A stretch of 40,613 nucleotides of DNA from a virus: positions 1-40,613 of the IMG/VR virus record IMGVR_UViG_3300034095_000282; one strand, given 5' to 3'. This document shows positions 22,336 to 23,784 of this stretch, piece after piece. How positions within the stretch are numbered: position 1 is the first letter of the stretch; the number at the start of each line of letters is the position of its first letter. The notes under the pieces were generated by a model. That model ran no database searches, was not told where the DNA came from, and saw nothing but the letters and a program-made list of their open reading frames with translations. Position numbers and translations under genes: made by a program.

Positions 22336-22740
22336 TTAAATCCAAGATTTCTTTTTCTTAGGAAAATCAATAAGGTGGTTGAGACTAACTGGGATAAAAC
22401 CTTTAGGCTTAATCACTTTTCCATTTTTATCCTTAACTACTTTTCCATCTTCTCCAACTTTAGTCATATTATTCTCGTGAACTAATAAGAAAGCCTCTTC
22501 CACTGAGTCTTGAAGACCACATTCATTAACTCCTCCTTTTAGGATATAGTCAATATCTACAAAAGCATCTAATACTTCTACTAGATCATTAGCTTTAAAA
22601 GCATCCTCTAATTCCTTAACCTCTTCTTTAAGAAGTTCAATTCTAAGTTTCATTGCTTCTTTGCTTGGCAGAGTTGGTTTCTCATTTAATTCTTGACCAC
22701 AAGCTGATTGGAATCCTCTTACTAGAGATAGTTTATTCAT
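22336..22740 (-). CDS. MazG-like nucleotide pyrophosphohydrolase
   Basis: 134 aa all-helical protein with the MazG/HisE-type metal-binding pattern: ELLKEEVKELEDAF at about 35-48 and EVLDAFVDIDYIL at about 55-67, giving the two acidic clusters (Glu39/Glu40/Glu43 and Asp58/Asp62) that hold Mg2+ in this superfamily. These enzymes hydrolyse NTPs or dNTPs to monophosphate and pyrophosphate. In phages they may adjust nucleotide pools or alarmones. It is the last gene of the minus-strand block and follows the structured RNA region. The substrate cannot be told from sequence. Confidence 0.75.
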   Translation of the reverse strand: MNKLSLVRGFQSACGQELNEKPTLPSKEAMKLRIELLKEEVKELEDAFKANDLVEVLDAFVDIDYILKGGVNECGLQDSVEEAFLLVHENNMTKVGEDGKVVKDKNGKVIKPKGFIPVSLNHLIDFPKKKKSWI

Positions 22741-22765
22741 TATGTATTTGGTTTTAATTATTAGT

Positions 22766-22905
22766 AATGAAGATGGGATTCGAACCCATACGAACGCAAT
22801 TTTGGATTGACCTGTGCGTTATCTACAAACGAATAACATAGGCTGTGTTCTGCTCATAGCGTCTACCACGTCAGGGAGATACCCCTAACCTTCCGCCACT
22901 TCATT
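22766..22905 (-). tRNA. tRNA-like element with interrupted core (possibly Leu-derived)
   Basis: Read on the minus strand, AATGAAG and CTTCATT form a perfect 7-bp acceptor stem. Just inside the 3' arm is a textbook T arm: ATGGG-TTCGAAT-CCCAT (22773-22789). After the 5' arm come TG, GCGGAA and later GGTAGACGC, the A-box/D-arm signature of bacterial tRNA-Leu. The D loop, however, holds a hairpin (GTTAGGG pairing CCCTGAC, 6-base loop). Between D and T arms there are 69 nt, about twice the Leu length, with hairpins GTTAT/ATAAC and AACGCA/TGCGTT and no clear 7-base anticodon loop. So I cannot give an anticodon. It is either a tRNA with insertions, a decayed tRNA or a tRNA-like RNA of another kind. 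No CCA is encoded. Confidence 0.5.
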
Positions 22906-23052
22906 ATATCCCTCGGTTGAGGGCACTTATCATGGTCCGAGGTAGCGTGTTCAAGTCAAATGACTGAACCTCGTATGTTAAATATTGTTTAGAAACCCCT
23001 CTCTTATAGCTTACCGAGTTATCAGTTACGGAGCTTGTATAAGAGTAGGGTT
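22906..23052 (-). ncRNA. Hairpin array upstream of the tRNA-like element
   Basis: No ORF covers this stretch. It contains three strong inverted repeats: CCCTC/GAGGG with a 4-base loop (22910-22923); CGAGG…CCTCG enclosing GTTCA/TGAAC and GTC/GAC (22938-22973); and a long one, AACCC and CTCTTATA pairing with TATAAGAG and GGGTT across one 2-base mismatch (22994-23052), with inner AGCT/AGCT and CCG/CGG stems. None is followed by a proper T-run on either strand, so they are not ordinary terminators. With the tRNA-like element they span 22766-23052. A structured RNA made from the phoH transcript is the simplest reading; the strand is inferred from the flanking genes. Confidence 0.5.
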
Positions 23053-23136
23053 ACTATTTATACTTATTTTAAAAATGCGTTCTATTGAAATTGGAAGTTA
23101 GTGCGCCTATACCTTATTCATCAAAGATAACAATTA

Positions 23137-23784
23137 TTACTTATATTCAAAATCAAGTATCTTACCTACAATATCAGATCTATGATTGGTTTTTAATTTT
23201 ATCCATTTGATTTCCTCAATCTTCTTAGACAACTCAATCACATAAGATAAACCATTGTATTCATCTCTAATATCCTTCTGTTCGTTATCTCCGTTGATGA
23301 TAATTTTACCAGTCTTACCTAGTCTAGTCAAGATAGCTAACATTTCTGCTTTAGTAAGGTTTTGAGCTTCTTCTACAACAAGAACATCATCAACTGTCTT
23401 ACCTCTAATAAACTGCACTGGAAGTGCTTTTATCTTATCTGTTTTGACTAAGTCTAATATCTTAACCTTATCATAGCACTTAATTAAGTTCTCTTGAAAA
23501 GCCTCTAAATATGGGTCAAACTTATCTTTCATATCTCCTGGAAGAAAACCTAATGAAGCACCAACTTCAACAGCAGCTCTAGTAACTAAAATATGTTCAC
23601 ATTGTTTCTTCATCAAGAAATCCAATGCTGTTTGAGCACATATCAATGACTTTCCGCTTCCTGCTCTACCAGTAACAACAACAATCTGATTATCAATTAT
23701 TAATTGCTTGGCTTCTTTTTGCTCTTCATTTAGTGTAACCTGATATTTAATATCAGACTTCCTAACTCTATTTGGTTCTTTCAT
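23137..23784 (-). CDS. phoH: PhoH-like ATPase
   Basis: 215 aa, the compact phage form of PhoH, an SF1-helicase-like P-loop ATPase. Walker A is GRAGSGKS at 39-46, the Walker B region is VVEEAQNLT (about 136-144) with Glu instead of the usual Asp before EAQN, then INGDNEQKD (sensor-like) and NHRSDIVGKIL near the C terminus. The early VTLNEEQKEAKQ segment is the Q-motif-like entry. PhoH homologues are frequent in phages and may act in RNA or DNA metabolism; the exact role is unsettled. It follows the zinc-ribbon gene with a 17-base overlap and precedes the structured 396-nt gap. Confidence 0.9.
   Translation of the reverse strand: MKEPNRVRKSDIKYQVTLNEEQKEAKQLIIDNQIVVVTGRAGSGKSLICAQTALDFLMKKQCEHILVTRAAVEVGASLGFLPGDMKDKFDPYLEAFQENLIKCYDKVKILDLVKTDKIKALPVQFIRGKTVDDVLVVEEAQNLTKAEMLAILTRLGKTGKIIINGDNEQKDIRDEYNGLSYVIELSKKIEEIKWIKLKTNHRSDIVGKILDFEYK

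Follow-up and report, generated by a model that had tools for sequence, protein, structure and literature searches.

Gap between the PhoH and MazG-like genes

The locus lies in a virus record of 40,613 bases (IMG/VR record IMGVR_UViG_3300034095_000282), the whole of which is referred to here as the window. On the minus strand, a PhoH gene and a MazG-like/PRA-PH gene flank a gap of 396 nt (22741-23136). The features, from the PhoH side, are as follows.

23137-23784, minus strand: PhoH gene (Pfam PhoH, E 2.5e-51)
23122-23129, minus strand: promoter-like box TATCTTTG, a sequence match to TAnnTTTG
23076-23114, minus strand: module X, the probable 5'-terminal module, with the core GTATAGGCGCACTAACTTCC at 23093-23112
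22990-23056, minus strand: long stem bearing the H hairpin (UAG/CUA, AACCCU/GGGGUU, CUCUUAU/AUAAGAG), in MFE and centroid folds
23001-23045, minus strand: module H hairpin, with a covarying stem, 3-nt 5' bulge, AGCU/AGCU, 2-nt 3' bulge, CCG/CGG, and 12-nt loop
23017-23028, minus strand: the 12-nt H loop UAACUGAUAACU, part of the module H hairpin
22910-22973, minus strand: module Y overall, consisting of a 5' part and a 3' part
22938-22973, minus strand: module Y 5' part, with a CGAGGU/ACCUCG stem, a swappable tip, and the invariant GCUACC (22941-22946)
22949-22969, minus strand: Y tip GUUCAGUCAUUUGACUUGAAC, on the outer stem 22938-22973
22910-22932, minus strand: module Y 3' part, with the invariant UGAYAAGUG (22924-22932) and the hairpin CCCUC-AACC-GAGGG (22910-22923)
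22765-22905, minus strand: tRNA-like element with a 7-bp acceptor, Leu-like D and T arms, and a D-loop hairpin graft at 22870-22889
22336-22740, minus strand: MazG-like/PRA-PH gene (E 1.4e-10)

An earlier note, made from the sequence alone, had singled out this gene-free gap as exceptional. Indeed, when the minus-strand block was roughly tiled with ATG ORFs of 35 aa or more, the gap ranked first in size among 36, the median being 9.5 nt. The ORF list contained no ORF above 41 aa inside the gap, all those present being 41 aa or less, and the encoded small protein that the note had set against a noncoding reading did not appear. The minus strand of the 231 nt at 22906-23136 folded at -53.6 kcal/mol (z -2.90; 1 of 200 shuffles was equally good) and that of the whole gap at -103.5 kcal/mol (z -3.31; 0 of 100), whereas the plus strand of the 231 nt showed a weaker fold significance (z -2.11; 4 of 200). 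The three strong hairpins that the note had described were recovered in the MFE folds of the minus strand, namely H (23001-23045), the Y tip (22949-22969), and a GC-rich hairpin (22910-22923). None of them is followed by a T-run in the window, again as described.

Rfam gave no match in 22906-23136 at gathering or relaxed thresholds (E up to 5 over 22600-23300); over the gap, a single borderline tRNA match was obtained at 22765-22905. A microRNA-type match on the opposite strand of the window was sub-threshold and was taken as chance. No covariance model of a self-cleaving ribozyme or riboswitch in Rfam 15 matched the window. When the gap was compared with GenBank phages by blastn, the sole match was a T-arm-like stretch of crAssphage.

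Two IMG/VR contigs, L081 and L082, were retrieved with the MazG-like protein. In L081 this protein is 100% identical, and the contig, which starts within the region, aligns through X, H, and Y. There, CCUCACACGAGGAUUUUUUU stands between Y and the MazG-like gene, a tRNA-like element being absent, and TTTTTTT (U7) follows the homologue of the third hairpin, which in the window has no T-run. In L082 the MazG-like protein is 97% and PhoH 33% identical; the promoter-like stretch leads into a different 5' domain, H (90% over 100 nt), and the 5' half of Y, after which come a homing endonuclease gene, a further Y whose tip differs, and the tRNA-like element. The endonuclease gene, of NUMOD4/HNH_3 type, is inserted in the Y region of L082 and is not present in the window. 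The tRNA-like homologue in L082 has a differing D-loop hairpin and a nearly identical insert. Judged by these two contigs, the pieces of the locus are lined up one after another and exchanged separately, and the tRNA-like element is no fixed part of it.

Modules X, H, and Y

The promoter-like box matches TAnnTTTG, which we take to be the consensus of the Bacteroidota -7 type promoter. The 17-nt stretch containing it, TAATTGTTATCTTTGAT, is identical at 17 of 17 positions in L082, despite the different 5' module and the PhoH identity of just 33%. The 20-nt core of X was matched exactly in 18 viral contigs. With up to two mismatches, one copy per record was observed in 17 of 44 records and none in the remaining 27, the 17 positive records having all been selected for X or being the window itself. 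A 24-nt stretch of X also matched two Vibrio phages (95.8%, E 0.04). Exact matches to X, and likewise to H, were absent from 84,980 bacterial and archaeal species genomes. Of the 17 distinct X contexts, the window counted, 4 have TAnnTTTG at a distance of 15-17 nt upstream; further contexts include positions immediately after tRNA 3' ends and at the ends of terminator-like hairpins. Such contexts suggest X as the marker of an RNA 5' end.

The 18-mer under the H loop was found exactly in 45 viral contigs, one of them by chance (L109, GC-rich coding-like DNA, rejected as an H locus), leaving H in 44; the loci L103 and L111 lie on the contigs of L081 and L082. The same hairpin was seen at all non-chance loci, although the invariance of its loop is partly built in, since the loci were collected by exact-match search. 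The earlier note had proposed covariation among relatives as the check, and this was observed. In the 14-pair H stem, 94.0% of cells were paired among 24 sequences and 37 cells were altered on both sides. The covariation score was 0.282, compared with 0.132 +/- 0.014 for shuffled alignments (0 of 500 as high) and 0.116 at most for slid controls. Two weaker measures were indistinct from the shuffles: 101 of 500 reached the observed number of pairs changed on both sides, and 223 of 500 that of further pair types.

A covariance model of H (R1), trained on 24 sequences including that of the window, matched the window at 22992-23057 with 84.8 bits and an E of 1.1e-18; both this match and the covarying two-bulge stem place the window hairpin in the H family. 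When 50 whole records were searched with the model, exactly one copy was found in 24, which had been preselected as H carriers, and none in 26, namely 16 PhoH relatives, 7 records having an A element (described below) without H, and 3 named phages. The 16 records were drawn from 80 PhoH relatives, and H was absent from all 16.

At 18 of 37 distinct H loci, the chance match excluded, the strand of H also carries a tRNA-like element no more than 800 nt away; the opposite strand carries one at none of the 37. The longest frames flanking H are on the same and the opposite strand in ratios of 24:6 downstream and 22:0 upstream. An earlier count that included L109 gave a tRNA-like start within 600 nt downstream at 15 of 38 loci, against 68 of 760 positions drawn at random from these loci. 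By the strand test, a nearby tRNA-like element is lacking at roughly half of the H loci (e.g., L084, L100, and L115). This strand bias towards neighbouring tRNA-likes and genes favours an action of H at the RNA level.

Several other observations on H were made. In L147 and L154, a tip J, AAGCAUCGGGGGCUAACCCGAAAUGCU, keeps both H bulges and has a different loop. The H loop CCGUAACUGAUAACUCGG (23017-23028, minus strand) may resemble 23S rRNA helix 71, through either mimicry or chance. Matches of the 45-nt H query by blastn to tail or hypothetical genes of Acinetobacter phages (E 3-9) were taken as chance, and a reading of H as group II domain V was dropped after comparison by eye.

Module Y was searched for with the pattern CUACC..UGAYAAGUG, which gave 15 rows, the window counted. 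Between UUCGA and GCUACC, the tip is one of two kinds of hairpin, that of the window in 4 rows and the other in 11. Compensated changes were observed in the tip stem of relatives (GUUC/GAAC, GCAC/GUGC, and GCUC/GAGC), the basis being three distinct stem sequences plus a further one with a G-U change. The last hairpin of Y had 98.3% of cells paired in an alignment of 12 sequences (A2) and a covariation score of 0.645, compared with 0.185 +/- 0.047 for shuffled alignments (0 of 500) and 0.282 for the best slid control. This hairpin ends 4 nt before the tRNA-like element in the window. As read from the sequences, a tRNA or tRNA-like element apparently begins a few bases 3' of Y in all rows but L081, L147 being the least clear. 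A hammerhead-like reading of Y was dropped, as Rfam gave no match. With covariation in both the H stem and the third hairpin and with Rfam, the family database to be consulted, silent for 22906-23136, the note's description of an unannotated structured noncoding region has held.

The tRNA-like element and other carriers of H

In the tRNA-like element of the window, an insert of about 67 nt stands in place of the anticodon arm and the variable arm. The element scored 29.1 bits against the Rfam tRNA model (threshold 29), with D-arm mismatches and two large insertions. ARAGORN found nothing, and neither program recovered a tRNA cloverleaf with an anticodon arm from the element. With a regular expression describing the acceptor, the T arm, and the Leu-like D arm, 37 rows were obtained; a few are ordinary tRNA-Leu genes, and one (L095, 379 nt) fuses two neighbours. 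In most rows, highly diverse inserts take the place of the anticodon and variable arms, and several may occur per phage (three in L110); the insert of the window was found in one other contig only, that of L082. These elements form a large phage family with constant acceptor, D, and T arms (L086, L089, L095, L098, L106, L108, L110, L117, L142, and L209), and their D loops may bear extra hairpins. The D-loop hairpin of the window, GUUAGGGGUAUCUCCCUGAC (22870-22889, minus strand), resembles free hairpins at L082:3926-3945 and L185:6413-6431 (immuto record). A search for it gave 4 matches in about 3.9 million bases over both strands, the fourth of which, in L070, is likely coding. Real tmRNA genes were also observed in related viral contigs (L004:2601-3023, minus strand; L009:6174-6500; L100, L102, L112, L115, and L122).

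The structures that carry H vary. It was observed on the fourth stem of an RNA that we call the A element, on the last stem of a B domain, on module X (L118), on terminator-like hairpins (L084, L100, and L115), and on the stem found in the window. The A element is 87-161 nt long, with ends of the UACCAAU/AUUGGUA type and an AGGGUUU/AAACCCU pseudoknot recognised by eye. A pattern lying outside H picked out 43 distinct A elements, of which 14 bear H at the tip site, 7 bear some other hairpin there, and 22 bear none; H is an optional tip of the A element, replaceable by other hairpins. By the pattern, 26 of 48 records contain one A element each. A stretch of the A element also matched 12 records of Flavobacterium phage immuto, Vibrio phages, and Bacillus phage Eldridge, and Flavobacterium phage immuto_2-6A carries both an A and a Y element. 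A-element-like RNAs were seen at L217:2990-3110, L220:1990-2110, and L218:3000-3125 (Vibrio phages Va1 and pv27 and Bacillus phage Eldridge). By eye, those of the Vibrio phages and Eldridge seem to be circularly permuted, the 5' strand of the second helix lying downstream.

The B domain of about 350 nt (..CAUAAAGAUA..CCUUGAGAAAGG..AAUGAGYUCUCAGC..GUGACCCU) is common to several phages and was located at L121:420-830, L108:7170-7400, and L082:3926-4190. Rfam gave no match on the 941-nt RNA cluster of L121 that includes it.

Interpretation and comparison with known systems

Taken together, we consider it somewhat probable that the gap holds a minus-strand phage noncoding RNA gene, in which a promoter drives an X-H-Y RNA of exchangeable modules and tRNA processing frees the tRNA-like element. 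From a TAnnTTTG promoter located where phoH ends, a transcript would start at X and pass through the single-copy hairpin H and the tRNA-leader module Y into the tRNA-like element. An RNase P cut at about 22905/22906 would then remove the tRNA-like element and yield an X-H-Y RNA of roughly 210 nt; in L081, X-H-Y would be ended by the terminator instead of processing. However, 13 of the 17 X contexts have no TAnnTTTG box, and no terminator follows Y in the window, where X-H-Y may therefore never exist as a separate RNA. X, H, and Y are independently exchanged RNA modules common to phages, probably those of Bacteroidota, and in the simplest reading a protein or RNA partner would dock at the invariant loop and the bulges of H.

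The earlier note had suggested one phage RNA of about 290 nt. Such a single RNA, of roughly 290-370 nt, in which X-H-Y and the tRNA-like element fold and act jointly like GOLLD or tmRNA, would fit their common strand, the 4 nt from Y to the acceptor stem with no terminator between, and the more significant fold of the whole gap than of the part (z -3.31 vs -2.90). However, X-H-Y in L081 has a terminator and no tRNA-like element, Y stands before ordinary tRNAs, and H and X are found without Y, any one module being able to stand alone. We regard the single RNA as improbable, since the first two of these observations weaken it, and the locus is better read as separable RNA modules strung on a shared transcript; thus, the structured noncoding RNA of the note stands, whereas its union with the tRNA-like element is not supported. 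A role as cis-regulatory leader or attenuator of MazG-like also seems quite improbable. In its favour, the region precedes the MazG-like gene, a terminator-like hairpin stands immediately before this gene in L081, and MazG-like is 97-100% identical in L081 and L082 whereas PhoH has diverged in L082; but H, X, and Y recur ahead of unrelated genes and tRNAs, and in the window the 141-nt tRNA-like element intervenes.

The single copy per genome (H, X, and A), the exchange of modules between carriers, and the homing endonuclease gene in the Y region of L082 could also reflect an element acting as DNA, for instance a site of replication, packaging, or recombination whose palindromic form is fortuitous. 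We hold this to be very unlikely in view of the strong strand bias with tRNA-likes and genes, the bulged stems with some G-U pairs, the promoter-like and terminator-like edges, and the existence of related phages without H. The same endonuclease gene and the unrecognisable anticodon arm of the tRNA-like element would agree with a decayed tRNA island, broken by homing endonucleases and now functionless; the compensatory changes in H and Y, the invariant loops, and the intact acceptor and T arms make such decay extremely unlikely.

Beyond the X-H-Y transcript that we prefer, a broader possibility is put forward tentatively, namely that phages graft single-copy RNA tips (H and others) onto a few stable scaffolds by recombination or homing. 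With the same reserve, the scaffolds might comprise the pseudoknotted A element, the B domain, X, Y, and a tRNA-like chassis with inserts in the D loop and the anticodon arm. If true, the work would be done by the tips, for example as decoys or as docking sites of host factors, while stability and clean ends would come from the scaffolds via tRNA processing; the whole would form a natural scaffold-and-cargo RNA system.

Among known systems, T4 stable RNAs C and D are comparable by description, being small stable RNAs of unknown function inside the phage tRNA cluster. In the tRNA-scaffold RNAs of synthetic biology, an insert is carried in place of the anticodon arm. The tRNA-like element of the window likewise keeps the acceptor, D, and T arms around such an insert; unlike the synthetic scaffolds, it is natural and phage-borne and has added D-loop hairpins. 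It also shares tRNA-like ends with tmRNA (RF00023), but its D arm is Leu-like and no tag frame was identified. Neither RF00023 nor the permuted model matched the window, whereas the same tools detected the tmRNAs of related phages. No group I or group II intron of Rfam was matched in the window or related loci, and an intron reading of the insertions was dropped because the modules lie between genes, the HNH gene being present in L082 and not in the window.

In the open-access, published literature covered, no paper describing these modules was found. The nearest in kind are GOLLD and ROOL, although their Rfam models were absent from cmscan of the window, of 22600-23300 (E up to 5), and of related loci. 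These giant ornate RNAs of phages and prophages are described as phage RNAs of unknown function near tRNA islands (PMC12286853). The RNA of the window is, like them, a structured phage noncoding RNA of the kind often found beside tRNA genes; unlike them, it is far shorter and consists of separable modules with hairpins swapped between carriers. A widespread set of unannotated phage RNAs is added to the short list known from tRNA islands, with the unusual traits of a single copy per genome, optional tips exchanged at one site, and adjacent tRNA-likes having no anticodon arm. The role of phage tRNA-island RNAs thereby becomes testable in isolates such as Flavobacterium phage immuto_2-6A.
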